From Nostoc carneum NIES-2107 (GTDB lineage Bacteria; Cyanobacteriota; Cyanobacteriia; Cyanobacteriales; Nostocaceae): 64,000 nucleotides of DNA. Where the stretch lies: the NCBI GenBank assembly GCA_002368155.1, contig AP018180.1, positions 1,831,947 to 1,895,946 on the forward strand, given 5' to 3'. The notes beneath the pieces are model-generated. The model did no database searches, had not been told where the DNA came from, and worked only from the letters and a program-made list of their open reading frames with translations. Every line of letters starts with the position of its first letter. Position 1 is the stretch's first letter. The position numbers and the translations under genes were made by a program. Positions 11,958 to 56,967 of this stretch are shown here, one piece after another.

Positions 11958-12019
11958 ATTGGCAGTTTAAACCATTGAGACTTATCAAAACTTTTTAAAC
12001 AACCTTTTAGGAGATGGGG

Positions 12020-12135
12020 TGTTGGGAATGGGTAATGGGTAATGGGTAATAGATATTTCTCCCCAGCTTCCTCTGCTCCCCTGCTCCCTCTGCTCCCTCT
12101 GCTCCCTCATCTCCCTCATCTCCCTCATCCCCACT
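12020..12135. repeat. Short tandem repeats (GGGTAAT and CTGCTCCCT/CTCCCTCAT types)
   Basis: Two runs lie between the NRPS and the convergent DUF928 gene: GGGTAAT repeated three times near 12030-12050, then overlapping 9-10 base units of CTGCTCCCT and CTCCCTCAT near 12068-12130. Such heptamer-like tracts are common in intergenic DNA of heterocystous cyanobacteria. They form no obvious intrinsic terminator. Confidence 0.75.
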
Positions 12136-12142
12136 CCCCTTG

Positions 12143-13105
12143 TCACCTCGTCACCCCTGCTCCTCCATTACCCATTGTTTCCTGTTGAGTAGTGCAGCAA
12201 GGCGGTAATAAAGGCTGATCTGCTACTGCGTCCAGCTTCACAGATTTCAACAAATCTGACCAATATTGCTTTATTTTCGGGTCATTTGGACTCTGGCGGC
12301 GTAAATCAGCCAAAATGCTGAGGGCATTTTCCCAAAATCCAGCTGTTGCATAGAGAACTGCACGATCTAAAGGTGTTGGTGTTTCTTTTACCTGTGCAGC
12401 AATGTTCTCATCTTGCATAACTTGGATTTTACCTTCTAGATAAAAGTCGCGATCGCGGCTGTTGGGATCGCAAATCATCGAAAAGGCCCAAGTATATTCT
12501 TTACCAGCTTTCAAAGGCGGTTGATTAGCTTTGAGGTTAATCCCAACAATTCCAGCTTGGTCAAAAGCTTTGAAATTCTCCTTATATAATGGATCGAGAT
12601 TCTCATCTTCCCGCAGTACAAATTCTAGTTCTGAGACTGTTCTGGAAGCTTTAGGAATATAGAAGAAGAATGTGGGACGCTCTTCTGTAGTGTATTGAGT
12701 GTCTCTATTGCTTGGGATCAAAGGAATCACCACTTCTCCCCGCTGAAAGCAAGCTCCCCGTGATGCTGCTGAACCGACTCTATTAGGTTTTCCTGGAACG
12801 AAGCTAATCAAAGTCTTGCGACCTTGAATATATCCCGTGACATTTCTAATTGCTGTGGTAGCATATATATCTCCGGGACGTAGTTGCGCTGCTTGCTGAA
12901 AATATCCCAAAGCTCTGCGATAGTTTCTGCGCTTAGTTTCTGTGTAGCCCAACCTCATATATTGGTTGTAACTATTTGTTACTTGTGCTACTTGAAAAAC
13001 TGGCTCTACTGCGAAAATTTTGCTCGTGCTGACAGCCCCAAAAGGTAAGCAGACTAAAAGAGCAAACAGATAACTTTTCCACAATTTACGTTTCATAATC
13101 TTCAT
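12143..13105 (-). CDS. Secreted DUF928 family protein with TPR-like segment
   Basis: 320 residues. An N-terminal signal peptide (basic start, hydrophobic LFALLVCLPFGAV, predicted cleavage near residues 30-40) leads to one TPR-like helix pair (about 48-85: YNQYMRLGYTETKRRNYR, ALGYFQQAAQLRPGD). The DUF928 domain follows (about 105-235), then a helical C-terminus resembling another TPR unit (ATAGFWENALSILADLR). DUF928 proteins are frequent in filamentous cyanobacteria, often beside CHAT or adenylate-cyclase-like signalling genes, but no function is established; none of those partners is adjacent here. A second Met (codon 4) is an equally possible start. The call rests on memory of the domain. 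Confidence 0.75.
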   Translation of the reverse strand: MKIMKRKLWKSYLFALLVCLPFGAVSTSKIFAVEPVFQVAQVTNSYNQYMRLGYTETKRRNYRRALGYFQQAAQLRPGDIYATTAIRNVTGYIQGRKTLISFVPGKPNRVGSAASRGACFQRGEVVIPLIPSNRDTQYTTEERPTFFFYIPKASRTVSELEFVLREDENLDPLYKENFKAFDQAGIVGINLKANQPPLKAGKEYTWAFSMICDPNSRDRDFYLEGKIQVMQDENIAAQVKETPTPLDRAVLYATAGFWENALSILADLRRQSPNDPKIKQYWSDLLKSVKLDAVADQPLLPPCCTTQQETMGNGGAGVTR

Positions 13106-13557
13106 TCTGTTACTACCACTCTTCTAAGGTGGGCATACAGCCAAAGCCTTGTTTTATAGTAATTTCCCGAACAGCATTCTTAATAAATTAAAAAAATTAG
13201 CCTCAATACGCTTGTGTATTTATATTGGCTGCGAGATAGATACTTGTCTCAGACAAGATATGGTAATTACTAGTTCCCATTTTTGAAATTGAAATGTTTT
13301 GTCTAGTCAGTGATTAACCTTTGATCATTTGTAGTTTCTCACAAATGATTTACTACTGCTATACAAGTAAACCATACAAACACAACAAAATACCTGAGGC
13401 GAGCTTTGACAAATACTAATGTTGAATGCCCAATACGCTCATCCCCTCTCTAGACATTTATATGATAAATCAATCATGAAGACATGAAAATCTCTTTTCT
13501 CTCTCAACAGTCAAGACTATTTTCCAGGCAGAGCTTTGACTACTGAATTAAAAAATA
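13106..13557. other. Intergenic region, nothing recognised
   Basis: 450 AT-rich bases between the start of the DUF928 gene and the end of the EamA gene, both on the minus strand. It must contain the DUF928 promoter. I see no RNA gene, repeat or strong hairpin. Confidence 0.4.
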
Positions 13558-31374: not shown

Positions 31375-32457
31375 TTAACCATGCATTGCTGGAACTTGTA
31401 AAGCTACAGGTATGAATTCACCAGCAGCTAAATCTAGGGGGAAGTTGTGAGCATTACGCTCGTGCATCACTTCTATACCTAAGTTGGCACGATTGACGAC
31501 ATCAGCCCATGTACTAACTACACGACCTTGAGAATCTAGCACAGATTGGTTAAAGTTAAATCCATTCAAATTAAATGCCATTGTGCTTATACCTAAAGCC
31601 GTCAACCAAATACAAACTACAGGCCAAGCAGCTAAGAAAAAGTGCAGCGAACGAGAGTTGTTAAAGCTAGCATATTGCCAGATCAAGCGTCCAAAATAAC
31701 CGTGAGCCGCTACAATGCTGTAGGTTTCTTGTTCTTGACCAAATTTATATCCATAGTTAATGGATTCAACTTCAGTCGTCTCCCTAACTAGCGAGGAAGA
31801 CACCAAAGAACCATGCATTGCACAGAATAAAGAACCACCGAAAACACCTGCTACCCCAAACATATGGAAGGGGTGGAACAGAATATTGTGTTCTGCTTGG
31901 AATACAAGCATAAAGTTAAACGTGCCGCTAATACCTAGAGGCATACCGTCAGAAAAGCTACCTTGACCGATGGGATAAATTAAGAACACTGAGGTCGCCG
32001 CAGCTACGGGTGCTGAGTAAGCCACACAAATCCAGGGACGCATCCCTAAACGAAAACTTAGTTCCCATTGTCTGCCCAGCCAACAGAAAATACCAATGAG
32101 AAAATGCAAAACAATTAGCTGATAAGGGCCGCCGTTGTAGAGCCATTCATCCATAGAGGCCGCTTCCCAAAGGGGGTAGAAATGCAAACCAATAGCATTG
32201 GATGTCGGCACAACAGCACCAGTAATGATGTTATTACCGTAAAGTAAAGAACCAGAAACAGGCTCTCGAATACCGTCGATATCAACAGGTGGTGCAGCAA
32301 TAAAGGCAATAATGAAGCAAATAGTTGCATTTAACAAGGCGGGAATCATTAACACACCAAACCAGCCGATATAAAGCCGATTTTCAGTGCTAGTAATCCA
32401 TTGCGAGAATCGATCCCACTGATTACCGCTCTCGCCTCTTCTGAGAGTTGTGGTCAT
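31375..32457 (-). CDS. psbA: Photosystem II D1 protein, divergent paralogue
   Basis: 360 residues, the standard D1 length. All oxygen-evolving ligands are present: D170, E189, H332, E333, D342 and A344 before a 16-residue C-terminal extension removed by CtpA; Tyr161 and H190 are also intact, so it should support water oxidation. Position 130 is Gln, as in low-light D1 forms. G80, F158 and T286 are unchanged, which argues against the microaerobic D1' type. It differs from usual cyanobacterial D1 at many positions (e.g. [39 protein letters not shown]-terminal QVPAMHG), so it is probably one of several conditional psbA copies. It is divergent to the reductase-ended NRPS across 660 bases. Confidence 0.93.
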
Positions 32458-33119: not shown

Positions 33120-36100
33120 ATGGAAAAATCCATGCTGAGTGATCATAAAAACATTTCCATTCATCAATTAGTGGAATTTCAGGTGTCACAAACCCCTGAT
33201 GCTGTAGCAGTTATTTTTCAAAATGAGCAATTAACATATAGAGAGCTGAATCAAAAAGCCAATCAATTAGCGCATCACCTGAGAACTCTAGGTGTCAAAC
33301 CAGAAACTCTAGTTGGGGTTTGTATAGAGCGATCGCTAGAGATGGTAGTCGCGTTGTTAGGGATACTCAAAGCGGGTGGTGCTTATATTCCTCTTGACCC
33401 TACCTATCCCCAAGATCGCTTGGAATTCATGTTAGAAGACTCTCAGATGCCAATTCTTGTGACTCAAAAGCATCTGATTGAGCAATTACCAAGTTTAGAA
33501 AAAAGACAGGTTGTATGTGTTGATATAGATTGCCCAGAGATTTCGCAATACATCACAGAGAATCTCAATAATACAGTCAATAGCGAGAATTTAGCTTATA
33601 CCATATATACTTCAGGCTCTACAGGTAAACCTAAAGGTGTTCAAATTATCCATCGTGCTGTTGTCAATTTCCTAAGTTCTATGCGAGAAGAACCAGGACT
33701 CAACCAATGGGATGTATTGTTAGCAATTACGACAATATCTTTTGATATAGCAGTTTTAGAAATATTTTTACCCCTGATTGTAGGTGCTCGCCTTGTATTG
33801 GTTAGTCAAGAAGTAGTTGCTGACGGAAAACAGTTATCTAAAATTCTCACGGAATCTGGTGCTACCGTCATTCAAGCTACACCAGCTACTTGGCGACTTC
33901 TACTTGGAGCAGGATGGCAAGGTAATAAGCAATTGAAAATGTTGTGTGGCGGAGAAGCAATGAGTCAAACACTTGCTAATCAGCTTCTAGAAAAAGGTGG
34001 TTCTTTGTGGAATATGTATGGACCAACTGAAACTACAGTTTGGTCTATGCTTTATAAAGTAGAGTTTGGCAATAACTTAGTAGCCCTAGGTCACCCCATT
34101 GCTAACACACAAATATATTTATTAGAGGAACCAGCAAGGCGCAAGAATGATCCGCTTAAGCTTGCCCCTGTTGGTGTACCAGGAGAAGTATACATTGGTG
34201 GTGATGGGGTAGCGCGAGGTTACCTTAACCGACCAGACCTAACTCGCGAAAGATTCATTCACAATCCTTTCAGCCATGAGCCTGGAGCACGACTATATAA
34301 AACTGGAGACTTAGCTCGTTATTTACCCAATGGAAATATAGAGTTCATCGGTAGAATTGATCATCAAGTCAAGATTCGTGGTTTTCGAGTGGAATTAGGA
34401 GATATTGAGACAGCACTTAGCCTGCATCCTTCAGTCAGAGAAGCAGTGGTGATTGCTAGAGAGGATACACCTGGAAATAAACGCTTGGTTGCCTACATTG
34501 TTCCTAAAGCTCGCCTCAATGATTTAGATTCATTGGTACCAATCAATAATTTCTCTACAGAACAACTTCAGGAGTGGAAACAAGTATGGAATGCTAGCTA
34601 TAGTAAATCCCCAGAAGATTGGGCTGGTTGGAATGATAGTTTTACTGGTCTACCAATACCAGCAGGTGAAGTACGTGAATGGGTAGACAGCACAGTTGAG
34701 CGGATTCTTTCTTTACGTCCACAGCGAGTATTAGAGATTGGATGCGGAAAAGGACTACTTCTGTTTCGTATAGCTCCTCACTGTAATTACTATGTAGGTA
34801 CAGATATCTCTACAGAAGCTATTCATTACATTGAGGAGCAATTAAGGAATGATCAAGAAAATTATTCCCATGTAATAGTATCCGAGGGCGCAGCCCATGA
34901 AATTGAACGCTTAGAGCCTGCCAGTTTTGATACTGTCATCATAAACTCAGTAATACAATACTTCCCCAGTGTGGATTATCTCTTGCAAGTTATTGAGAAG
35001 AGTGTCAAGTTGATCAAACCGGGAGGACAAATTTTCATTGGTGACGTTCGCAGTTTGCCACTACTAGAAACTTTTCACACCGCAGTTCAACTCAACCAAG
35101 CTATTGCTTCTCTGTCTAGCTATGAACTCCAACAAATAGTTCGGGAACGAATTTTGTATGAAAGAGAACTAGTTCTTCATCCCGAATTCTTTCCTACTCT
35201 GAAGCAAAGAATTCCCCGTATTAGTCATGTTCAAACCTTACTCAAGCGAGGTCATTCTCAAAACGAATTGATTAGATTTCGCTCTGATATTATTCTCCAT
35301 ATAGACAATGATGTGTTTCTAAATATAGAGCCTTTGTGTTGGGATTGGGATAACAATGATATATCAATACCACAAATATGTAACTTTCTTCAACAGAAGC
35401 AACCAAAAACTCTAAAAATCATTAATGTGCCAAATGCTCGAGTTTTCCTAGATGTGAAAGCTGTGGAGCTGTTAGCAAGTGCCAATAAACCGACAACTAT
35501 AGGGCAGCTAAGAGAAACTCTTTGGCAGATGCATGAACAAGCAAGGATTCATCCAGAGGAATTTTGGGACATAAGTCAATATCTACCCTATAGTGCCCAT
35601 ATCACTTGGTCTGAGCTAAATAATCCAGGTACATATGATGTTGTATTGCACAGGAAGTTAAAAACAACAACCCAAAAAACTATTCTTGTCCTACCAGAAC
35701 AACCATTTGAGTTAAAACCCTTAAATGCTTATGCAAATAATCCTCTTCAGGTAAACGAGAAAAGCAATTTAATTCCCCAACTACGTAATTTCCTCAAGGA
35801 AAAATTACCTGACTATATGCTGCCTTCAGCATTTGTCGTGATAGATACCCTACCCCTGACACCAAATGGAAAAATTGATCGACGAGCACTTCCAAAGCCC
35901 AAAAAGAACCGACCAATTTTAACAGAGTCATACGTTGCACCTACAACTTTGCCAGAAAAGCATCTGACTGAAATTTGGTCTGAGGTCTTAGGTATTGAAT
36001 TAGTAGGAATTTACGATAACTTCTTCGATTTGGGAGGACATTCTCTTTTAACAGTTCAACTGCTATCTCAGATAGAAAAGTTAATGCAAGTAGAAATACC

Positions 36101-37490
36101 TTTGTTCTACCTTCTCAAGGAACCAACAATAGCTGGATTAATCAAATCAATTGATGTTTTACAAAATTTTGATTCTACTAAAGCTGTTGAGGAAGTTTTA
36201 CAGGTAGACTTACTTGCTGAAGCAGTTTTAGACCCAAGCATTTTACCTGAATTACCTTTTGTCGAACTTACAAATAAACCAGAGCATATCTTATTGACAG
36301 GAGCAACAGGTTTCTTAGGGGCTTTTCTCTTACATGAACTCCTGCAACAAACATCAGCTAATATTTACTGCCTGGTTCGTGCTTCTAATCTTGAAGAAGG
36401 ACAGTACAAAATTCAAACTAATCTAGAACGCTATATGCTCTGGAACGGTGAATTCAATTCTCGGATAGTTCCACTTTTAGGTAATTTATCCAGACCTTTT
36501 TTGGGGTTAAATTATGAAAAATTCCAAGATTTAGCTAGTAAGCTTGATCTGATTTATCACGCTGGAGCTTTTGTCAACCTAGTTTATCCTTACAATCTAC
36601 TGCGAGATACTAATGTCTTAGGCACTCAAGAAATTCTTAGGTTAGCCAGTTTAGGCAAGGTCACACCTGTTCACTTTATCTCGACGGTTGATGTACTTAA
36701 GCCTCTAATTTTTCATGAAAACAAGCTAATTTTAGAAGATGATCGCTTACTATCTGGAGAAGGATTAACTAGGGGTTATACACAAACTAAGTGGGTTGCC
36801 GAACAGCTAGTCATAGCAGCTCAACATCGAGGTATTCCTGTTTGCATATATAGACCAGGAATGCTAGCGGGTCACAGTCAAACAGGTGCTTATCACACTA
36901 ATGATCTAATGGGCAGAATTATCAAAGGGATAATTCAATTAGGAGCAGCCCCTGATTTAGATCAATGGGTGAATATAACTCCTATAGACTACGCTAGCAA
37001 AGCAATTATACATCTATCACAACAGCGAGAATCATTTGGAAAATCCTTCCATATTATCAATTCTCACCCTTTATCCTGGAAGCAACTTATCAATGGAATT
37101 CGTAGTTTCGGTTACTCCATTCAGGCACTACCACTTGAAAAATGGCAAAGAGAGTTACTCAAGCTGGGCAATTTACAAGAAAATGTTTTAGCTCCCATTA
37201 GATCGTTGTTTGTTGAAAAGAGTTCTCAAACAGATATGACGTATTTGGAAACATTTCTAATGACATCTAAATCTTTTGATTGCCAAAATACCCTAACTGG
37301 ATTGGCTGGAACTTCTATAGTCTGCCCAGCTATTGATTCCACGATCATGAATGCTTACTTTTCATACTTCATTAGAAATGGTTTTTTACAATCTGTAGAA
37401 AATACTTATAATAGTACATTTGTATCCAAAGAACCGATAGAGACTTACAAGACATATGACAGCGATAACTATGTGCGATTGCTGACTTGA
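33120..37490 (+). CDS. Stand-alone NRPS: A-(N-methyltransferase)-T-reductase
   Basis: 1456 residues and no condensation domain. Adenylation domain (1-480; YTSGSTGKPKG near 160, NMYGPTET near 298, GRIDHQVKIRGFRVELGD near 411). A SAM-dependent N-methyltransferase is inserted before motif A10 (about 485-860; VLEIGCGKGLLLFRIA near 538, VIQYFPSVDYLLQVIE, IGDVRSLPLLE). Motif A10 (NGKIDRRAL) is near 917; carrier domain FFDLGGHSLL, Ser near 975; thioester reductase from about 1055 (HILLTGATGFLG, Y1220-x3-K1224). The hand-read specificity code DILQLGMVWK matches the remembered glycine code. Expected chemistry: activate glycine, N-methylate it on the carrier, release it reductively as aldehyde or alcohol. 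With no C domain, either the free N-methylamino aldehyde is the product or a separate C domain supplies an acyl partner. Confidence 0.92.
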   Translation: MEKSMLSDHKNISIHQLVEFQVSQTPDAVAVIFQNEQLTYRELNQKANQLAHHLRTLGVKPETLVGVCIERSLEMVVALLGILKAGGAYIPLDPTYPQDRLEFMLEDSQMPILVTQKHLIEQLPSLEKRQVVCVDIDCPEISQYITENLNNTVNSENLAYTIYTSGSTGKPKGVQIIHRAVVNFLSSMREEPGLNQWDVLLAITTISFDIAVLEIFLPLIVGARLVLVSQEVVADGKQLSKILTESGATVIQATPATWRLLLGAGWQGNKQLKMLCGGEAMSQTLANQLLEKGGSLWNMYGPTETTVWSMLYKVEFGNNLVALGHPIANTQIYLLEEPARRKNDPLKLAPVGVPGEVYIGGDGVARGYLNRPDLTRERFIHNPFSHEPGARLYKTGDLARYLPNGNIEFIGRIDHQVKIRGFRVELGDIETALSLHPSVREAVVIAREDTPGNKRLVAYIVPKARLNDLDSLVPINNFSTEQLQEWKQVWNASYSKSPEDWAGWNDSFTGLPIPAGEVREWVDSTVERILSLRPQRVLEIGCGKGLLLFRIAPHCNYYVGTDISTEAIHYIEEQLRNDQENYSHVIVSEGAAHEIERLEPASFDTVIINSVIQYFPSVDYLLQVIEKSVKLIKPGGQIFIGDVRSLPLLETFHTAVQLNQAIASLSSYELQQIVRERILYERELVLHPEFFPTLKQRIPRISHVQTLLKRGHSQNELIRFRSDIILHIDNDVFLNIEPLCWDWDNNDISIPQICNFLQQKQPKTLKIINVPNARVFLDVKAVELLASANKPTTIGQLRETLWQMHEQARIHPEEFWDISQYLPYSAHITWSELNNPGTYDVVLHRKLKTTTQKTILVLPEQPFELKPLNAYANNPLQVNEKSNLIPQLRNFLKEKLPDYMLPSAFVVIDTLPLTPNGKIDRRALPKPKKNRPILTESYVAPTTLPEKHLTEIWSEVLGIELVGIYDNFFDLGGHSLLTVQLLSQIEKLMQVEIPLFYLLKEPTIAGLIKSIDVLQNFDSTKAVEEVLQVDLLAEAVLDPSILPELPFVELTNKPEHILLTGATGFLGAFLLHELLQQTSANIYCLVRASNLEEGQYKIQTNLERYMLWNGEFNSRIVPLLGNLSRPFLGLNYEKFQDLASKLDLIYHAGAFVNLVYPYNLLRDTNVLGTQEILRLASLGKVTPVHFISTVDVLKPLIFHENKLILEDDRLLSGEGLTRGYTQTKWVAEQLVIAAQHRGIPVCIYRPGMLAGHSQTGAYHTNDLMGRIIKGIIQLGAAPDLDQWVNITPIDYASKAIIHLSQQRESFGKSFHIINSHPLSWKQLINGIRSFGYSIQALPLEKWQRELLKLGNLQENVLAPIRSLFVEKSSQTDMTYLETFLMTSKSFDCQNTLTGLAGTSIVCPAIDSTIMNAYFSYFIRNGFLQSVENTYNSTFVSKEPIETYKTYDSDNYVRLLT

Positions 37491-37629: not shown

Positions 37630-40302
37630 ATGAAAAGAAAGAAAAACTTCATACATAATTCTATCGGTTCAAGACTATTTTTCTATGTATTAAGTGGTGC
37701 GTTAGTAGGATTAGGTAGTATGTCTTACTTCTTCTATCAAGCACTGGAAAATCGAGCTAAAGATGAAATCAAAGGTAATTTAAGTACGCAAGTTAAGTCC
37801 GTTGAAGGATCGCTAGCTAGAGTAGAACAGTCTATGCGGAATTTATCTGCTGCTGTCAAAACTTTGCAGCATCAAGGAATTAAAGACCCACAAGTATATA
37901 AACAGCTAGTTTTTGATATTTTTCAAGAACGTTCAATTTTAACAACAGGTCTTGGTATTGGTCAAACGCCTTACCAAATTGTGACTGATCGTGAGTGGTA
38001 TTGGCCCTATTTTGTTATTGACCAAAAAACCCCTGGTCAAATAGGTGAAATTTTACCCAAACCTTATAATCATATTCGTTATGCAGAACTATTCAAGGAA
38101 GATAATTACCCAAAACAAAGTTATTATCAGACTGTTATAAAAGCCAAGAAGGATATATGGTATGAACCTTATAAATGGTACGGACTGACTTTAACAACTT
38201 ATACAGGCCCTATAATTTCTGATAATAACAATTTGATTGGTGTAACTGGTCTAGATATTAATGTCACAGCTATAGGTGAAAAAGTAAAAGTACCTGTAAC
38301 AAAAGGTGGTGGTTATTTTGTTATTTTAAGTGAACAAGGGAATTTGCTGGCATATCCACCAGAACCGCAAAAAGCTAAATCATTAGCCACTTATAAAGAC
38401 ATACCAGAATTGAGGGATGTGTGGCAGCAGATTGAAACCGATAATGACGGTTTTGTACAAGCAAAGGGTAAATATTGGGTATTTCAGAGGGTACATGGAA
38501 CGAACTGGTTAATGTTAGCAGTCGTACCTCAGTCAGTTGTGTTAGCCCCAGTATTATCTATTGCAGTTGGTGGTGCCTTAGGTGCTGGTTTAGTTTTAGC
38601 ATTAGTTGTTACTTTATTTATTCGTCAACTTAATAACCGCTTACAACCCATTCTCGAAGAATGCCAGAAACTGGCAGAAGTTGATGCTCAAAGAGCGCTG
38701 CGTTTAGGTCAAGATTCTGGGGTAGTAGTTAATAGCAAACAAAACTATCAATCTGACTTACAAAATGCAGATGAAATCGAAATCTTGGCACAGTCTTTTA
38801 CTCAAATGGCAAGCCAGTTAAAAGAGTCATTTGATGAGTTAGAACTGCGAGTTCAAGAACGCACATCTGAATTACAAGAAGCTAAAGAATTGGCTGATAG
38901 TGCCAACAGAGCTAAAAGCGAATTCCTGGCTAACATGAGCCATGAACTTCGCACACCACTCAATGGAATTTTAGGATATGCTCAAATTCTCCAAAGTTCA
39001 AAAAATATGACGGAGAAGCAGCAGAAAGGTATTGGAATTATTAACCAATGTGGCTCTCATCTGCTAACCTTGATTAATGATATTCTTGACCTTTCCAAAA
39101 TTGAAGCTCGGAAAATGGAATTACATCCTACAAATTTTCATTTTCCTTCTTTCTTGCAAGCCGTTGCTGAAATTTGTAGAATTAAAGCAGAACAAAAAGG
39201 TCTAACCTTTATTTATCAACCAGATACTCAACTACCAACAGGTATCTATATTGATGAAAAGCGTTTAAGACAGGTTTTAATAAATTTATTGGGTAACGCA
39301 ATTAAATTTACTGAAAAAGGTAATGTAACGTTTACGGTAAAAATTCTACAAATTCAAAGTATTTCTTCTCAAGAACCAGTAATTTATCAAATTCGCTTCC
39401 AAGTTGAGGATACTGGTGTGGGGATTAGTAGTGAGCAAATAGAGCAAATATTTTTACCTTTTGAGCAGGTAGGTAACATCAAAAAACAGTCAGAAGGAAC
39501 AGGTTTAGGATTAGCTATTAGTCAAAAAATTGTTGAGATGATGGGTGGTACTATCGAAGTGCAAAGCCAACCAGAAAAAGGTAGTATTTTTTGGTTTGAT
39601 GCCGATATACCTGAATCCTTAGAATGGGCAGATAAGTCCAAAGTTACTCAACAAGGCTCTATCACTGGTTTTAAAGGCGAAAAACAAAAGATTCTGGTAG
39701 TAGATGATCGTTGGGAAAATCGCTCTGTACTTATGAATTTACTGGAACCAATTGGTTTTGAAATTGTAGAGGCAGAAGATGGTAAACAAGGATTAGCCAA
39801 AGCAGTTGATTTTCAACCTAACTTAATAATTACTGATATTACTATGCCAGTGATGAATGGATTAGAAATGATTCAACATCTACGTAATTTACCAGATTAT
39901 AAAGATATCAAGATAATTGTTTCATCAGCTAGTGTTTTTGATACTGACAAGCAGAAGAGTTTAGATGCAGGTGCCGATGATTTTATGCCTAAGCCTGTGC
40001 AAGCTTCTGACTTACTTGAAAAGTTACAAAATCATCTAGAAATCGAATGGAATTATGAAGAAGAAAATAACTCATTATTACTACTTAGCCAAGAAGTAGT
40101 ACTGCCACCAACAGAAGAATTAAATCGTTTACATGAATTAGCTTTAAAAGGTCGAATAAAAGCTTTACAAAATAAATTATCGGAAATAGAAAAAGCCGAT
40201 CATAGATTTGTACCGTTTGTCCAGGAAATCCAAGCATTAAGTCAGAGTTTTCAAATAGAAAAAATTCAAAATCTTATTGAGAATTATATCAAATCTTCTT
40301 AG
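37630..40302 (+). CDS. Hybrid sensor histidine kinase with Cache-like sensor
   Basis: 890 residues. Transmembrane helix (about 12-33), large extracytoplasmic double-Cache-like sensor (about 34-300; [27 protein letters not shown]), second membrane helix (about 303-330), HAMP-like linker and coiled coil. The HisKA block [10 protein letters not shown] has its His near 438; the HATPase domain has [17 protein letters not shown] and [11 protein letters not shown]-terminal receiver (about 688-805) has VVDDRWENR and acceptor Asp in TDITMP near 733; the last 80 residues are helical. All catalytic residues are present. It lies 139 bases after the glycine-type NRPS and 59 bases before a second kinase on the same strand. 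Its ligand is unknown; Cache domains typically bind small organic molecules. Confidence 0.92.
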
Positions 40303-40361: not shown

Positions 40362-41846
40362 ATGCAGAACTCAGAAACCAATTTAATCTTGATAGTTGAT
40401 GATACTCCTACAAATTTAGAAGTACTGTCGGAAGCTCTAACTGATGCAGGATTTGATGTTGCAGTGGCAACGACTGGTGAAAGTGCTATTAAGCAAATCG
40501 AATACGATCCACCAGAGTTGATTTTGTTAGATGTGATGATGCCAGGTATTGATGGATTTGAAACTTGTAATCGACTAAAAGCAAATCCGAAAACCAAAAA
40601 TATCCCCATCATTTTTATGACTGCTCTGAGTGACACAGTGGATAAAGTCAAAGGCCTTTCTTTAGGTGCTGTAGACTATATCACTAAACCATTTCAGCAA
40701 GCAGAAGCACTAGCCCGTATTCAAGTTCATTTGAAGCTGCAAAATATCAGTGCAGCAATGGAAAAACAAAATGTGCGTCTTAAACAGGAAATTGCAGAAC
40801 GTGCTAACGCTGAGGCTGCATTGCAAAAGTTAACTCAAGAGTTAGAGCAAAGAGTTACAGAAAGAACCAAGGAACTATCGCAAGCACTGCAAGACCTGCA
40901 AAGTGCCCAAGTTCAACTGATTCAGACAGAAAAGTTAGCCACATTGGGTCAGTTGGTAGCAGGTGTAGCGCACGAAATTAACAATCCCATCAATTTTATT
41001 CATGGCAATCTCGATCATGCCAGTTCCTACATTAATGACTTGTTAGAACTCCTCAAACTCTATCAAACTCAGTTTCCTGAAACCACTCCAGAGATTGCTA
41101 AAAAATCAAAGGAAATTGACTTAGATTTTTTGAGGGCAGATTTACCCAAAATTATCTCTTCGATGGCAGTTGGCACACAACGAATTCAGGAAATTGTACA
41201 ATCTTTCCGCAACTTCTCCCGCCATGACGAGGCGGAAGTGAAACAAGTCGATATCCATAATGGATTAGACAGTACGCTAATGATGATCGACCATCGTTTG
41301 AAAGCTAGTACAGAATATCCACCAATTCAGGTGGTTAAGGATTATGGAAACTTACCACCAGTGGAATGCTTTGCTGGACAAATGAACCAAGTCTTTATGA
41401 ACGTCCTCAGCAATGCCATTGATGCTTTGGAAGAGTTAATGGGAGATGGGCACAGTTATTGTACTTTATCACCAATGATTCGGATTCAGACAGAAATTGT
41501 CGGTGCTAATCGTATTGCTATTCGGATTGCTGATAATGGCCCAGGTATACCGAAGGAAGTGCAAAAGCGGGTATTTGATCCCTTCTTCACCACTAAACCA
41601 GCAGGTAAAGGGACAGGATTAGGGATGTCAATTAGCCATCAAATTATCACAGAAAAACACGGTGGTTCATTGTCATGTATTTCCAGTCTTGGCAAAGGTG
41701 CAGAGTTTATCATTGAAATTCCAATTCAATTGATTAAGTTGTCCAATACAAACTGGTGGCAGTCTCAAGATGTACCGACAAACTCTATGCAGAGTCAATC
41801 ATTTCCTCATTATCGTCAAGATATAGCAATTCTCAATGAGTTGTGA
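40362..41846 (+). CDS. Receiver-histidine kinase (cytoplasmic)
   Basis: 494 residues with an N-terminal receiver (1-125; ILIVDDTPTN, acceptor Asp57 in LLDVMMPG, conserved Lys in YITKP). A coiled coil follows (about 135-190), then the HEINNP-type acceptor helix (GVAHEINNPINFIHGN, His near 203), and an ATPase domain with SNAIDALEE, DNGPGIP, FDPFFTTKP and GKGTGLGMS. No membrane segment. The kinase core closely resembles that of the kinase at 2648-4396, suggesting a shared cyanobacterial subfamily. The receiver probably gates kinase output and may accept phosphate from the hybrid kinase just upstream, making a local relay. No DNA-binding output gene is in this cluster. Confidence 0.92.
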   Translation: MQNSETNLILIVDDTPTNLEVLSEALTDAGFDVAVATTGESAIKQIEYDPPELILLDVMMPGIDGFETCNRLKANPKTKNIPIIFMTALSDTVDKVKGLSLGAVDYITKPFQQAEALARIQVHLKLQNISAAMEKQNVRLKQEIAERANAEAALQKLTQELEQRVTERTKELSQALQDLQSAQVQLIQTEKLATLGQLVAGVAHEINNPINFIHGNLDHASSYINDLLELLKLYQTQFPETTPEIAKKSKEIDLDFLRADLPKIISSMAVGTQRIQEIVQSFRNFSRHDEAEVKQVDIHNGLDSTLMMIDHRLKASTEYPPIQVVKDYGNLPPVECFAGQMNQVFMNVLSNAIDALEELMGDGHSYCTLSPMIRIQTEIVGANRIAIRIADNGPGIPKEVQKRVFDPFFTTKPAGKGTGLGMSISHQIITEKHGGSLSCISSLGKGAEFIIEIPIQLIKLSNTNWWQSQDVPTNSMQSQSFPHYRQDIAILNEL

Positions 41847-41946: not shown

Positions 41947-42693
41947 TTATTTGCGGTATAACTGTCCATTATGGACTTGTAGCACTGGATGATTGCATTT
42001 ACGTACTAGTTGTTCATCATGAGTAGTAACAATTACAGTTGCGCCAAAGGAATTTAACTTTTGGAGAATCTGCATGACTTGCCAAGAGTTATCTGGATCG
42101 AGGTTTCCTGTTGGTTCATCTGCCAAAAGTAGTGGAGGAGTTGCCACAATTGCACGTGCAATACTCACTCGCTGTTGTTCTCCGCCAGAGAGTTGATCGG
42201 GAAAGCAGTCAGCTTTAGAAAGCAAACCCACTAGCTTTAATGTGGGTTCTAAACGACGTTGAATTTCTTTGCGGGTATAACCTTGAGCTTGCAAGACAAA
42301 GGTGATATTTTCAGCTACTGTTCGTTGGCGAATCAGCTTATAGTCCTGAAAAACAATGCCAATGCGCCGCCGTAATAATGATAAGCGATCGCCCCTTAAA
42401 GATGCCATATTGCATTGATCGACAATTACTTCTCCTTTGGTTGCTAACTCTTCACCATACAGCAACTTCAAGAGAGTTGATTTACCAGAACCACTGGGGC
42501 CTGTGATAAATAAAAATTCTTTTTCTTTGACCTCTAAGTTCACGTCCAACAAAGCATGACAGCCGTTGGCATAGGTTTTTGTCACAGAAGACAATCGTAA
42601 TATTACTGGAGCGTTGCTACTTTGCTTTTGAGTTTCAATGTCCTGTTGATGAACAAATTGCTTCTGTGTTGCTTGAGTGGTTAATACTGGCAT
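41947..42693 (-). CDS. ftsE: FtsE-like ABC transporter ATPase
   Basis: 248 residues. A 30-residue N-terminal extension precedes a standard ABC ATPase: Walker [11 protein letters not shown]-loop VFQDYKL, signature [14 protein letters not shown], Walker B LLLADEP with TGNLDPD, and switch His in [20 protein letters not shown] and the short length identify the FtsE branch, which with FtsX controls peptidoglycan hydrolases at the division site. No ftsX is adjacent, although in many bacteria the pair forms an operon; in cyanobacteria the genes are often separate. LolD/MacB-type ATPases are close alternatives. Confidence 0.8.
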
Positions 42694-43627: not shown

Positions 43628-44329
43628 AACCGATTCTTCCTTCACCTCTCACCACAATTTATAGAACGTTAGTCTATCAAATTTTTTAATATATTGCCTG
43701 TTGTAATTTTAGCAACAATGAATAGGTCTTTAACATCGATAAAACTCAGTAAATTATCTTCTACACTTGATTTAAAAAATAAGATGTTGACAGTATTTTC
43801 AATATTTAACTTCATAAAAATTTCTTATATAAAAGATGTAGCAGTCATAAATTACCAACACCACTGAATGAAAAAGGGACTTTGACTAGAGCTTAGAGTT
43901 TAGTATTTTTTACTCAGTATAAGCACTAGGTTAGCTTTGCCAGATAGGCTATTACACCTAACTTTGGATACAAAAAAGCTATGACTTACGCAAACAATAG
44001 CGAAAATGCTAATTTTCAGCTAGAGGCATTTATGTATTTCTTCAGATCTCTTGTATTTCTGTGTAAGCCTTCAAAGCATGAAAATCCTTTTTTGCTAATG
44101 TTTGGTTTTCGGTTGGGGTAAACCCCTGTTGATTCTATGATTGAAGTGTATTGTTCCCAGAGATCATGAATGCCTGTGGTACGGGCAACACCTTGAAGTG
44201 TTAGCCTGAGTCACAACGCACTTCTAGCATTTGTAAGCAAATATCTTGCAATTGCATCTCTCACAAATTTTGAACTTTTGAGTAAACTCGATTTTACAGT
44301 TAAGGTAGTGTAACGGGCGGAACTTGGCT
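43628..44329. other. Intergenic region upstream of the NarL-type regulator
   Basis: 700 bases without a supported gene. At 44111-44126 GGTTGGGGTAAACCCC forms a small hairpin similar to the second hairpin of the NsiR1-like repeats (GGTTGGGGTATATCCCC); the context lacks the other NsiR1 elements. The regulator probably has a long leader. Confidence 0.4.
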
Positions 44330-45049
44330 ATGAGTAAAATTCGTATTGCTCTGATTGAAGATCATGACCTCACCCGTGTGGGTATTCGGACAGCACTACT
44401 GCAAAAAGAAGAAATTGAGGTTGTAGGAGAGGCTGCCAATGCTGCAGAAGGTCTAAAAATGCTAAAAATGCTACAACCGGATATTGCGATTGTAGATATT
44501 GGGTTACCCGATAAAGATGGCATTGAGTTAACGCGGGAGTTGAAATCTACTAGTAATGGAGAAGATTTAAGAACAAAAGTATTAATTTTGACACTAAGAG
44601 ATAACAAGGAAGCTGTGTTGGCAGCTTTTGCTGCTGGGGCTGATTCTTACTGTATGAAAGATATCAAATTCGATAATTTACTGGAAGCAGTGCGAGTCAC
44701 ATACAATGGCAACGCTTGGATTGATCCAGCGATCGCGCGAATTGTATTGCAACAAGCACAACAAAATCCTGCTAAACACGATAAAGTGTCATTAGACACC
44801 AAAAATACTTTTATTACCTCTGAGTCTGGGGAAAATCCAGAACATATAGATGCTTATACGCTGACAGAAAGGGAATTGGAAGTGTTACAGTTGATTGTCG
44901 AAGGTTGTAGTAATGCAGTCATCGCTGAGAGACTTTATATCACAGTCGGTACAGTGAAAACTCACGTTCGGAATATTTTGAACAAGCTATGTGCTGATGA
45001 CCGTACCCAAGCCGCAGTTCGTGCCTTGCGTTCTGGATTAGTGGGATAG
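44330..45049 (+). CDS. NarL/LuxR-family response regulator
   Basis: 239 residues from ATG 44330; an in-frame TTG at 44324 is less likely. The receiver (1-125) has acidic pair EDHD, acceptor Asp in IVDIGLPDKDG near 56, and the conserved Lys in CMKD. A linker (130-170) leads to a LuxR-type helix-turn-helix (about 175-238; LTERELEVLQLIVEGCSN, then ITVGTVKTHVRNIL). It is a transcription factor activated by phosphorylation. No kinase is directly adjacent; the next gene, 186 bases downstream, is a receiver-phosphatase. Targets are unknown. Confidence 0.92.
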   Translation: MSKIRIALIEDHDLTRVGIRTALLQKEEIEVVGEAANAAEGLKMLKMLQPDIAIVDIGLPDKDGIELTRELKSTSNGEDLRTKVLILTLRDNKEAVLAAFAAGADSYCMKDIKFDNLLEAVRVTYNGNAWIDPAIARIVLQQAQQNPAKHDKVSLDTKNTFITSESGENPEHIDAYTLTERELEVLQLIVEGCSNAVIAERLYITVGTVKTHVRNILNKLCADDRTQAAVRALRSGLVG

Positions 45050-45235: not shown

Positions 45236-46909
45236 ATGACTGAAGTAGAAATATGCAAACTTAAGCTCATGGTGGTAGATGATGAGCCAGATAACTTAGA
45301 CTTACTCTACCGCACTTTTAGACGAGATTTTGAAGTATATCAAGCCAATCATGCTCGTGCTGCTCTAGAAATATTAGACAAAGAAGGCGAGATGGCGGTG
45401 ATTATTTCTGACCAAAGAATGCCAGAAATGAATGGTACGGAATTTCTCAGTCGCACAGTGGAGCGCTTTCCCGATACGATTCGGATTTTGCTGACTGGTT
45501 TTACGGATGTCGAAGACTTGGTAGATGCAATTAACTCTGGTCAGGTATTCAAGTACATCACCAAACCCTGGAATCCGCAACGATTAAAAGCATTAGTAGA
45601 ACAAGCTACTGATACTTATCGTTTGGTAAAAAAGCGTACCCAAGAGTTGCGGCGTGCTTTGCGGCGAGAATCTTTGTTTAATGCAGTGACAACAGCAATT
45701 CGGGAGTCTTTAGACTACGACAGTATGCTGCATAAGATTGTTGCCACCATTGGGGAAACGTTTGAAGCTACTTGTTGCTTTCTGAGGCCTGTAGAGGGTG
45801 ATTCTCTAACATCAGACCTGTATTCCTACCAAAATCCTCAATATAATGCATCAAGCAGTATTTTCGATCCCAGCGAGTTAATCGAAAAAGTTCTTGCAAC
45901 TCATCAATACCAACTGACTCAAGGTACAAATGATGGTAAGCCTTGCCATCAATTAGTTGTGCCATTATCTTACCAACAACATTTATTGGCTGTTCTGGCT
46001 CTCTACCAAAGAGGTAGTGTTCATTCTTGGCAAGATGAAGATATCCAACTAATTGCAGGTGTGGCAGAACAAGCAGCTTTAGCCCTCTCCCAGGCAAAAT
46101 TATACCAGCGCCTGCAAGAAAAACAGCAGCAAATTCGCGCTGAATTAGAAGTGGCTCGCCAAATTCAAAATAATTTGCTCAGGCAAAGCTTACCAGATAT
46201 CAAGGGTGTGAAGGTGCAAGCTTGCTGCTATGCGGCACGGGAGGTAGGAGGAGATTTTTTTGAAGTTTTTGTTCATCCCAAAGGTGACTTGTGGTTAGCA
46301 GTGGGTGATGTTTCTGGTAAAGGAGTTCCAGCAGCTTTGTTCATGGCTAGCGCCATTTCGGTGTTACGTCGGGAATTATCTCAGGAAACGCCAGCTGAGC
46401 CAAATGTGGTGATGCAGAATTTGAATCACGCTATGTCTGATGACTTGATTGGCAATAATTGCTTTATCACTCTCGTCTTAGCTTGTTATACCCCTAGCAC
46501 CAGGGAACTAGTTTATGCTAACGCTGGTCACATTTATCCCTTACTCTGGTCATCACCTACAAGTGCTACCGAACAACCGCACTACCTCAAGGTACGCAGC
46601 GTTCCCTTGGGTATTTTGCCGAAATGGCAAGCACAGTCTGGTCGTTTAGTGTTAAATCCCCAAGATACCTTACTCCTCGCCAGCGATGGAATTACAGAAG
46701 CAATGGTATCAAGTAATGTGTTTAATGGTGATAATACTGGGAATGGTAGTCAAGGATTTAGCCGTTCAATGCTCAATCAAGATGGTCTTTGGCAACTTTT
46801 ACAACAGGAACCAAAACCGCTTTCTCTTACCCATCTACTAACTCGCATCCAGGCAAACAACCAAGTTCAAGAAGATGACCAAACTATACTCTCATTGGAG
46901 GTTTTATAA
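45236..46909 (+). CDS. Receiver-GAF-PP2C (RsbU/SpoIIE-type) phosphatase
   Basis: 557 residues. A receiver (about 8-125; MVVDDEPDNL, acceptor Asp near 59 in ISDQRMPEMNG, Lys in YITKPW), a GAF domain (about 150-300; ATCCFLRP, AVLALYQRG), a coiled coil (about 300-325; QIRAELEVARQIQ) and a PP2C-like phosphatase (about 330-557; EVGGDFFEVF and GDVSGKGVPAALFMA with metal-binding Asp, YANAGH, LLLASDGITEA). In partner-switching systems such phosphatases dephosphorylate an anti-sigma-antagonist. The anti-sigma-type kinase gene begins 3 bases after this stop. The antagonist (STAS protein) is not in the window. Confidence 0.92.
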   Translation: MTEVEICKLKLMVVDDEPDNLDLLYRTFRRDFEVYQANHARAALEILDKEGEMAVIISDQRMPEMNGTEFLSRTVERFPDTIRILLTGFTDVEDLVDAINSGQVFKYITKPWNPQRLKALVEQATDTYRLVKKRTQELRRALRRESLFNAVTTAIRESLDYDSMLHKIVATIGETFEATCCFLRPVEGDSLTSDLYSYQNPQYNASSSIFDPSELIEKVLATHQYQLTQGTNDGKPCHQLVVPLSYQQHLLAVLALYQRGSVHSWQDEDIQLIAGVAEQAALALSQAKLYQRLQEKQQQIRAELEVARQIQNNLLRQSLPDIKGVKVQACCYAAREVGGDFFEVFVHPKGDLWLAVGDVSGKGVPAALFMASAISVLRRELSQETPAEPNVVMQNLNHAMSDDLIGNNCFITLVLACYTPSTRELVYANAGHIYPLLWSSPTSATEQPHYLKVRSVPLGILPKWQAQSGRLVLNPQDTLLLASDGITEAMVSSNVFNGDNTGNGSQGFSRSMLNQDGLWQLLQQEPKPLSLTHLLTRIQANNQVQEDDQTILSLEVL

Positions 46910-55791: not shown

Positions 55792-56967
55792 ATGCAGACA
55801 CGCAAGCTACTCGACTGGTGGGAAACACTAACACCCATAGCGCGCACCGGAGCGATCGCACTATTCATTCCGTTGCTAGTACTTAATGGTTGGGCAATTT
55901 CGGCAATTTTCAATTACTTTCACTCGTTGATTGTGATTTTAGTCGGAGCCTCAGTGCTAGCTTTTCTGCTGAACTACCCTGTTAGCTGGATGGAGCATCA
56001 TGGTGCTAGGCGAGAGCCGATTGCTATTTTAGTATTTCTTTTGGCTTTATCAATTTTATTGGCGTTGGGTGTTACCCTATTTCCCCTAGCTCTTACCCAG
56101 GCTCAACAACTCGTGGCTCGTTTACCAGAGTTGATTGACTCAGGACGCTCCCAGTTAATGATGTTAAATGAGAAAGCAGAGGTTTTTGGCTTGCCAATTA
56201 ACCTGGATGCTCTAGTCGTGCAAATAAACGATCGCGTCAAGGGACAATTGCAAGCGATCGCGGGACAAGTTCTCAATTTGGCTGTAGTCACAGTCACTAG
56301 TCTGTTGGACTTCGTCTTGACGATGATTTTGACTTTTTATCTGTTACAGCATGGGGGAGAACTCTGGGAAAGTTTAGTGGAATGGTTACCTACAAAAGTT
56401 CGTGAGCCTTTTTCGCAAACAGTACGCCTGAGCTTTCAAAATTTCTTTATTACCCAACTAATTTTATCTACCTGTATGGCATCGGCACTCATCCCCACGT
56501 TTTTGTGGTTAAAAGTGCCGTTTGGTCTATTATTTGGGTTAACAATTGGGATTATGGCCCTCATCCCCTTTGGCGGTTCTGTGGGTATCGCCTTGACTAC
56601 CTTATTAGTATCGCTGCAAGATTTTTGGATGGGAGCCAGAGTGTTAATGGCTGCGGTGATTGTACAGCAAATTCTCGAAAACTTAATTGCTCCTCGAATT
56701 TTAGGCAGCTTTACGGGTTTAAACCCCGCCTTGGTGGTAATTTCAGTATTAACAGGGGCGAGAATTGGAGGTCTTCTGGGTGTAATTGTGGCAGTACCTA
56801 CTGCTGTAGTCATTAAAACTGCTTTAAGCGTGATCCGTCCCACATCATTAAGCAGCGATACTGATGAATATACAAATTCCAGCGAAAAAGCTGCACCCGC
56901 AACCGAAGAACCCCCAAAACCTGAAGCGAAAAACCCCTTGAGTATCTCAGAAGCTACTTCACCGTAG
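55792..56967 (+). CDS. AI-2E family transporter (PerM/TqsA-like)
   Basis: 391 residues with about eight membrane helices. Family blocks: ILVGASVLAFLLNYPVSWME, FVLTMILTFYLLQHGGELWE, PFGLLFGLTIGIMALIPFGG and GFNPALV-like TGLNPALVVISVLTGARIGG. Members export autoinducer-2, ions or other small molecules, or act as Na+/H+ antiporters; the substrate is unclear. The last 45 residues are acidic and Pro/Glu-rich, cytoplasmic. ATG 55792 is a plausible start although no strong ribosome site is visible. Confidence 0.9.
   Translation: MQTRKLLDWWETLTPIARTGAIALFIPLLVLNGWAISAIFNYFHSLIVILVGASVLAFLLNYPVSWMEHHGARREPIAILVFLLALSILLALGVTLFPLALTQAQQLVARLPELIDSGRSQLMMLNEKAEVFGLPINLDALVVQINDRVKGQLQAIAGQVLNLAVVTVTSLLDFVLTMILTFYLLQHGGELWESLVEWLPTKVREPFSQTVRLSFQNFFITQLILSTCMASALIPTFLWLKVPFGLLFGLTIGIMALIPFGGSVGIALTTLLVSLQDFWMGARVLMAAVIVQQILENLIAPRILGSFTGLNPALVVISVLTGARIGGLLGVIVAVPTAVVIKTALSVIRPTSLSSDTDEYTNSSEKAAPATEEPPKPEAKNPLSISEATSP

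Follow-up and report, generated by a model that had tools for sequence, protein, structure and literature searches.

In a 64,000-nucleotide stretch of the Nostoc carneum NIES-2107 genome (contig AP018180.1, positions 1,831,947 to 1,895,946; hereafter the window), an intact 1456-residue protein with adenylation, embedded N-methyltransferase, thiolation and thioester reductase domains (A-NMT-T-R) is encoded from an ATG start at 33120-37490 on the forward strand, and is followed on the same strand by a hybrid histidine kinase with a dCache sensor. Comparison of related cyanobacterial loci indicated that the specificity-determining core of the adenylation (A) domain and the PDC1 part of the sensor vary together. 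We lean towards the explanation that the synthetase makes a signal for which the kinase is the cognate amine receptor, with specificity modules that would be exchanged together. Computed from the sequences were the order of the domains, the code classes, the linkage of the genes, the lack of the methyltransferase (MT) in one class, the co-variation and the dCache resemblance. The main features of the cassette are:

33120..37490, + strand: A-NMT-T-R single-module synthetase, 1456 aa (Pfam, NCBIfam)
33156..34541, + strand: adenylation domain, residues about 13-474 (Pfam)
33645..34124, + strand: A-core specificity segment, residues 176-335, code DILQLGMVWK
34581..35399, + strand: embedded N-methyltransferase, residues about 488-760, motif EIGCGKG
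35925..36155, + strand: thiolation (carrier, T) domain, residues about 936-1012, GGHSL
36201..37397, + strand: thioester reductase (R) domain, residues about 1028-1426, TGATGFLG and YTQTK
37630..40302, + strand: hybrid histidine kinase, 890 aa, with dCache sensor, HisKA, HATPase and REC domains; proposed receptor
37765..38304, + strand: PDC1 part of the sensor, kinase residues 46-225, co-varying with the substrate code
40362..41846, + strand: REC-HisKA-HATPase protein (REC-kinase), 494 aa, the next cassette gene

Domain anatomy and predicted substrate of the synthetase

Pfam domains succeed each other along the synthetase as AMP-binding (residues 19-369), an interrupted AMP-binding_C (429-474), Methyltransf_12 (538-637), PP-binding (949-1009) and NAD_binding_4 (1059-1296), and the thioester reductase family TIGR01746 spans residues 1056-1423 (331 bits, cut-off 213). 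No condensation (C) domain, PF00668, was detected by the Pfam scan of the 1456 residues, and the possibility that Pfam had overlooked one was ruled out with a condensation seed (itself PF00668), which matched 0 of 32 aligned synthetases. The A-NMT-T-R order without a C domain, as read in a first-pass annotation made from the letters alone, is thus borne out by Pfam, TIGR01746 and the seed search, and the protein belongs to the single-module reductive enzymes related to nonribosomal peptide synthetases (NRPS), having A, T and R domains and lacking a C domain. Motifs are present in the MT (EIGCGKG), T (GGHSL) and R domains (TGATGFLG, ST and YTQTK), the R domain being the putative reducer of the carrier-bound thioester. 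L-aminoadipate-semialdehyde dehydrogenase (TIGR03443, 582 bits against a cut-off of 1030) and myxochelin synthetase MxcG (NF038078, 645 bits against 2300) were ruled out as identities.

The ten-residue code DILQLGMVWK is composed of residues 209, 210, 213, 252, 275, 277, 299, 307, 308 and 918, and was confirmed at these positions; its earlier assignment as glycine-type was strengthened by alignment with solved A domains. The top solved relatives of the A-core segment are 4zxh and 5u89 (alignment, with nine code positions read by eye), which we take to be glycine modules. The closely similar DILQLGMIWK is the code of three related loci (L042, L061 and L151) and, according to an excerpt of PMC12283262, is carried by glycine domains; when six adenylation codes were searched as words in the open-licence literature, only this one gave a match. 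The glycine reading of the window A domain is therefore well supported by its code. As proposed in the first-pass annotation, the predicted product is an N-methyl amino aldehyde or alcohol: the domain and code basis of that proposal held, and both product and reduction level remain predictions.

That annotation had also recommended looking for the same domain order in other genomes, and A-MT-T-R orthologues were indeed found. A 406-residue MT-region query matched 6 of 7 other genomes of the genus (63-77% identity, in open frames of 1453-1514 residues; G007 was the sole genome without a match), and because of these matches a chance origin of the open reading frame (ORF) is excluded.

Codes were read from alignments in 31 non-redundant synthetase-kinase pairs (L139, a near copy of L059, and the duplicates L062, L063 and L107 were left out), and the predicted classes comprise 14 Gly-type, nine Ala-type, six Pro-type and two D-T-E-D pairs. 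Orthologues with an Ala-type code occupy the same syntenic place as the window synthetase; for them, the McyA structure 8jbr shows the same residues at nine positions (alignment, by eye), in a module that is presumably alanine-taking. DVQF[IY]A[HQ]VVK is, we assume, a proline code. The MT domain is absent from all six Pro-type (DVQF) synthetases and present in all 25 others (14 Gly-type, nine Ala-type and two D-T-E-D). Since proline is already a secondary amine, the predicted Gly-, Ala- and Pro-derived products would all be secondary amines, and we infer that this shared chemistry accounts simply for the absence of the MT domain from the Pro-type enzymes. The D-T-E-D and D-A-E-D loci stand apart as a second group, in which other families were observed between synthetase and kinase: a HalD-family protein (L074:12937-13671) and an NNMT/PNMT/TEMT-family methyltransferase (L198:11954-12724).

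Linkage of the synthetase with a dCache kinase

The first-pass annotation described the synthetase as free-standing, which holds for the protein; the gene is adjoined by a conserved dCache hybrid kinase. This kinase, the REC-kinase, the Ala-type orthologues, the MT-free Pro-type versions and the co-variation with the sensor had all escaped that annotation. In a first comparison of 15 loci (the window and 14 others, without the duplicates L062, L063 and L107), 15/15 had the kinase family beside or near the synthetase and 12/15 had the REC-kinase family, loci with the kinase including those of Oculatella, Leptolyngbya and a Pseudanabaenaceae metagenome-assembled genome. Thirty of the 31 non-redundant cyanobacterial pairs have the kinase gene downstream of the synthetase and in the same orientation. 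The gaps between the two genes are 23-1608 bases, a range that includes the single opposite-strand pair (451).

Linkage was also approached from each partner. A query of sensor residues 1-400 matched at least 17 of 217 genomes of the family, at least 39 of 388 in the order sample and at least 109 of 388 in the class sample; these samples overlap, and matches may have been missed, as four candidates were scored per genome in the order, class and MT-region class searches and eight in the family search. From these matches 52 loci were fetched, picked mostly by identity and therefore not a random sample, and 23 of them hold a synthetase (four re-fetched, L140, L141, L142 and L172; two in pieces). 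The MT-region search of the class sample matched at least 85 of 388 genomes, the fetched matches having for the most part open frames of about 1400-1530, and 11 of 18 further fetched loci hold an A-MT-T-R synthetase without a C-seed match, one of them in pieces. When these 11 are taken with eight earlier A-MT-T-R loci of the class sample (L173 in pieces; no C-seed match listed among the eight), a histidine kinase lies within about three genes in 16 of the 19, the exceptions being L191, which stops at a contig edge, L199, and L203, which lies within an NRPS line. The kinases of L196, L198 and L201 carry dCache, and that of L192 is of a permease-PAS-GAF type rather than a dCache type. In L155, L173 and L205 the synthetase is spread over several ORF pieces beside an identifiable sensor, which may reflect decay or assembly error.

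Co-variation of the adenylation core with PDC1

The co-variation is well illustrated by the window and the Ala-type locus L039, which share high identity in the kinase (93%), its REC domain (98%), the REC-kinase protein (94%) and the MT domain (77%), and low identity in the A core (32%) and PDC1 (54%). Among pairs of loci with kinase identity of at least 78% (loci being shared between these pairs), PDC1 identity is 58-99% within the same predicted class (16 pairs) versus 46-57% between different classes (17 pairs), and the same-class and different-class means are close to each other for the kinase (88 and 89%), PDC2 (82 and 81%) and the R domain (71 and 68%).

Partial Mantel tests were carried out with all 31 pairs, with 28 pairs (without the D-T-E-D pairs and L116) and with the 11 closest pairs. 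With kinase and R domain controlled, A core and PDC1 correlate with partial r of 0.30, 0.41 and 0.80, respectively (permutation p of 0.0005, 0.0005 and 0.0015, kinship ignored), and for A core and kinase, with PDC1 and R domain controlled, partial r is 0.03, -0.03 and -0.14. The nearest neighbour belongs to the same class in 30/31 cases for PDC1, 23/31 for the R domain, 20/31 for PDC2 and 16/31 for the kinase. On trees of 29 pairs (D-T-E-D pairs excluded), the class label changes three times on the PDC1 tree, where the minimum is two, 12 times on the kinase-REC tree and 11 times on the tree of PDC2 with the second transmembrane segment (TM2) and HAMP; shuffled labels gave means of 12.4 for PDC1 and 12.7 for the kinase, and were as low as the observed number in 0/200 and 88/200 shuffles.

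The residues that separate Gly-type from Ala-type sensors are confined to PDC1: in a scan of residues 40-329, 17 of 17 separating columns fall within residues 61-218 and none in PDC2 (226-300). In Gly/Ala contrasts independent on the kinase tree (23 rows), residues 152 and 160 track the class in five of five (p ~0.06) and residue 184 in four or five of five, and after removal of four long-branch rows all three residues track the class in six of six (p 0.03). The sensor type has thus changed along with the code in no fewer than five separate lineages of the kinase. As in pherotypes, the predicted specificities of maker and receptor change together on a conserved chassis.

The dCache sensor and its predicted ligand

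The window sensor scores above the cut-off for MCP-like_PDC_1 (36 versus 27 bits) and below it for dCache_1 (38 versus 45 bits). A profile of ten ectodomains had 3li8, 3lib and PacA (7psg) as its top PDB matches, followed by other dCache chains, and Foldseek matches of a moderate model of the L107 ectodomain are to dCache structures, amino-acid and amine receptors alike. Taken together, profile and fold comparisons assign the sensor to the dCache domains.

In an excerpt of PMC10104139, 3lib and PacA are handled as amine-type receptors, the Arg that binds the ligand carboxylate in amino-acid receptors is R126 in PctA, PacA is without it, and some tested sensors bind ethanolamine or dimethylamine at micromolar level. 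We placed the dCache_1AM motif positions by sequence alignment and counting only. On this placement, the carboxylate-binding Arg is present in 0/31 sensors, its position being occupied by Q, K, L, N or D; the final Asp is kept in 31/31, and so is the aromatic pair, when W and F are counted. The M215 position is L, M or I in 29/31 (Ala in the two D-T-E-D sensors), and the S217 position is S or T in 28/31 and Asn in the other three. Replacement of the Arg (by Lys in five sensors) with retention of the Asp and the aromatic pair favours an amine ligand over an amino acid.

Proposed mechanism and alternative explanations

We hypothesize that glycine is activated by the A domain and N-methylated on the carrier, and that reductive release with NAD(P)H would yield sarcosinal (N-methylglycinal), or N-methylethanolamine after a second reduction. 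Orthologues would make the N-methyl-alanine counterpart, and the MT-free relatives the prolinal or prolinol counterpart. The product would leave the cell by export or diffusion and bind in the PDC1 pocket of the adjoining dCache hybrid kinase, from which the signal may pass to the receiver domain and then to the REC-kinase. A core and PDC1 would be the specificity modules, exchanged jointly on a conserved chassis in a pherotype-like manner. In this scheme we infer the amino acids, products, export, binding and output. In its fullest form, the proposal is of a cyanobacterial pheromone family, in which a one-module NRPS-like maker of secondary amines (aldehyde or alcohol) and a dCache hybrid kinase as reader have A core and PDC1 swapped as matched cassettes, giving rise to pherotypes among close relatives; this wider picture is offered tentatively, as one that may prove right slightly less readily than wrong.

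The co-variation would be equally expected if the sensor read the extracellular substrate amino acid (glycine, alanine or proline) and the kinase controlled its use by the synthetase, since one amino acid would then be read by both proteins. Amino acids are frequent ligands of dCache domains, many amino-acid receptors are among the Foldseek matches of the L107 model, and Lys, which could still bind a carboxylate, occupies the Arg position in 5/31 sensors; however, that position, placed by sequence alignment, is non-Arg in every sensor, and 3lib and PacA, both among the three closest profile matches, are treated as amine-type (PMC10104139, in the excerpt), and we regard sensing of the substrate itself as unlikely. 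We consider it rather improbable that the synthetase makes an ordinary secreted metabolite or osmolyte, with the kinase as a pathway regulator with an unrelated ligand and the co-variation resulting from joint DNA transfer. Pathway genes do often adjoin their regulator, and the R domain partly tracks PDC1 and substrate, with a partial r of 0.55 in the closest 11 pairs, but MT, T and R domains separate the A core from PDC1 (by about 3.6 kb in the window), and a single-tract transfer would bring this intervening part along more fully, whereas at high kinase identity R domain, PDC2 and kinase are near-equal between same-class and different-class pairs, and kinase, PDC2 and transmembrane regions do not track the class label. 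Hand-over of sarcosine, or of the corresponding aldehyde, to an NRPS or another enzyme encoded elsewhere, which the first-pass annotation had allowed for as feeding a partner, is possible and not favoured; we judge it very improbable. It would fit with the two-module NRPS with a thioesterase about 21 kb upstream (4938-11957), with other R-domain proteins in the same genome and with a C-A-MT-T-R protein in an NRPS line of another genome (L206). Nevertheless, the surroundings of the cassette in the 15 loci (in the window, part 20001-52000; polyketide synthase (PKS) domains not searched) yielded no further ORF matched by an A, T, R or C seed, and the R domain, whose motifs are present, would set the product free. 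In the 52 sensor-query loci, the sole extra ORF of this kind, besides pieces of broken synthetases, is at L171, which has no synthetase (PKS again not searched).

Several observations weigh against a co-exchanged signal synthase and receptor. The R domain partly follows the class, its tree requiring six label changes, and it correlates with PDC1 when kinase and A core are controlled (partial r 0.35, 0.08 and 0.55 for 31, 28 and 11 pairs); A residues 13-175, outside the core, also follow PDC1 in the closest pairs (0.06, 0.09 and 0.82). The Mantel and shuffle tests are inflated because of relatedness, and the tree-based contrast reaches only p 0.03-0.06, values that are optimistic because the residues were chosen for separating the classes, the four rows moreover having been removed after inspection of the tree. 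L116 and L165 are sensor outliers, and the two D-T-E-D loci have a very different dCache sensor (PDC1 18-22% identical to the window). The Gly-type class is a mixture of DILQLG (6), DMPQLG (6), DLPQLG (1) and DIPELG (1) codes, of which only DILQLG is well anchored. A sensor without a synthetase is found in 29 of the 52 sensor-query loci, several of them chemotaxis-like in look, and the sensor family therefore also has other roles; conversely, L199 and L203 have a synthetase without a linked dCache kinase, and L191 stops at the contig edge. The ectodomain models are weak, with a mean predicted local distance difference test (pLDDT) of 63.4 for the window and 69.5 for L107, and worst at or near the pocket segment. 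Finally, no dedicated exporter lies on the cassette strand, and the window also contains the further NRPS mentioned above.

Relation to known systems

In the pherotype systems Agr and ComQXP, adjacent signal maker and sensor kinase also change specificity together on a conserved chassis; their signals are ribosomal peptides, in contrast to the product of a one-module NRPS-like enzyme proposed here. The cyanobacterial lyngbyatoxin synthetase LtxA shares with the window synthetase an A-MT-T arrangement with a terminal R domain, but has two modules, a condensation domain and a dipeptide alcohol product. The fungal NRPS-like glycine betaine reductase reportedly acts reductively on a glycine derivative, as proposed here, and is said to differ in its A-T-R-R order, in making choline and in lacking an embedded MT or a linked sensor.

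The dCache_1AM amine receptors (PctD, PacA, McpX and M. mazei 3LIB), as presented in an excerpt of PMC10104139, resemble the window-type sensors in their dCache fold, aromatic pair, final Asp and absence of the carboxylate-binding Arg, and most window-type sensors also keep their hydrophobic and small hydroxyl positions; unlike for the cassette sensor, pairing with a ligand synthetase is not described in that excerpt. In the HamD/valdiazen system of Burkholderia, an NRPS with a terminal reductase likewise helps to make a small signal molecule, but from a multi-gene cluster and by other chemistry, and the excerpt of PMC11659414 mentions neither an embedded MT nor an adjacent dCache kinase. Among the titles and abstract beginnings found in the open-licence literature, none suggested that a one-module reductive NRPS is paired with a dCache kinase or that the two exchange their specificity segments jointly. 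The component parts are of known kinds, and what would be new is the synthetase-dCache kinase pairing and the joint exchange of specificity segments. If the proposal is correct, maker and receptor together give cyanobacteria a signalling system based on small molecules, the neighbouring adenylation code can be used to predict what a dCache kinase binds, and NRPS and receptor specificity modules are exchanged jointly, which would be useful for sensor engineering. The natural Gly-type and Ala-type pairs on a near-identical kinase make the ligand prediction testable.

Gene neighbourhood and related loci

The following genes surround the cassette in the window:

4938-11957: two-module NRPS (C-A-T-C-A-T-TE, with TE for thioesterase), 2339 aa, about 21 kb upstream of the synthetase
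31375-32457, opposite strand: psbA, directly upstream of and divergent from the synthetase
41947-42693, opposite strand: ABC-transporter ATPase gene, next after the cassette
44324..45049, + strand: REC-LuxR/GerE response regulator
45236..46909, + strand: REC-SpoIIE phosphatase, 557 aa, adjoining the REC-LuxR regulator
55792-56967: transporter that Pfam names as AI-2E family, located some 14 kb downstream of the cassette

The psbA family and the REC-LuxR family are each present in 6/15 compared loci; the REC-SpoIIE position lies beyond the end of most of them. The REC-LuxR/GerE regulator is a possible output of the cassette, and the REC-SpoIIE phosphatase a possible output of partner-switching type. 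The window phosphatase calls to mind L159 (13407-16583), where the genes that follow the cassette encode a receiver, a phosphatase of the same REC-SpoIIE kind, and DUF6272 and STAS proteins; the downstream genes of L152 and L165 match this set in size. The L159 genes resemble a partner-switching module, of a type that we take to be linked to motility systems. In L201, a MatE-family exporter (11713-13263) lies between synthetase and dCache kinase and is a possible exit route for the product.

Related sensors occur in other settings. In L164, L167, L168, L169, L175, L181, L183 and L190, the same sensor domain stands beside receiver-domain genes in an order like that of chemotaxis operons (from seed labels, not Pfam). 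In L143-L147, L162, L163, L166 and L188, no synthetase neighbours the sensor kinase, which belongs to the same family and in some loci is in pieces; these kinases could be listening-only receptors, and the nearest PDC1 domains of L188, L162, L163 and L166 are Pro-type. In L171 (4199-7501), HlyD-like, FtsX/MacB-like and thioesterase genes precede a sensor kinase that shares 66% PDC1 identity with the window sensor and is possibly an uncoupled receptor.

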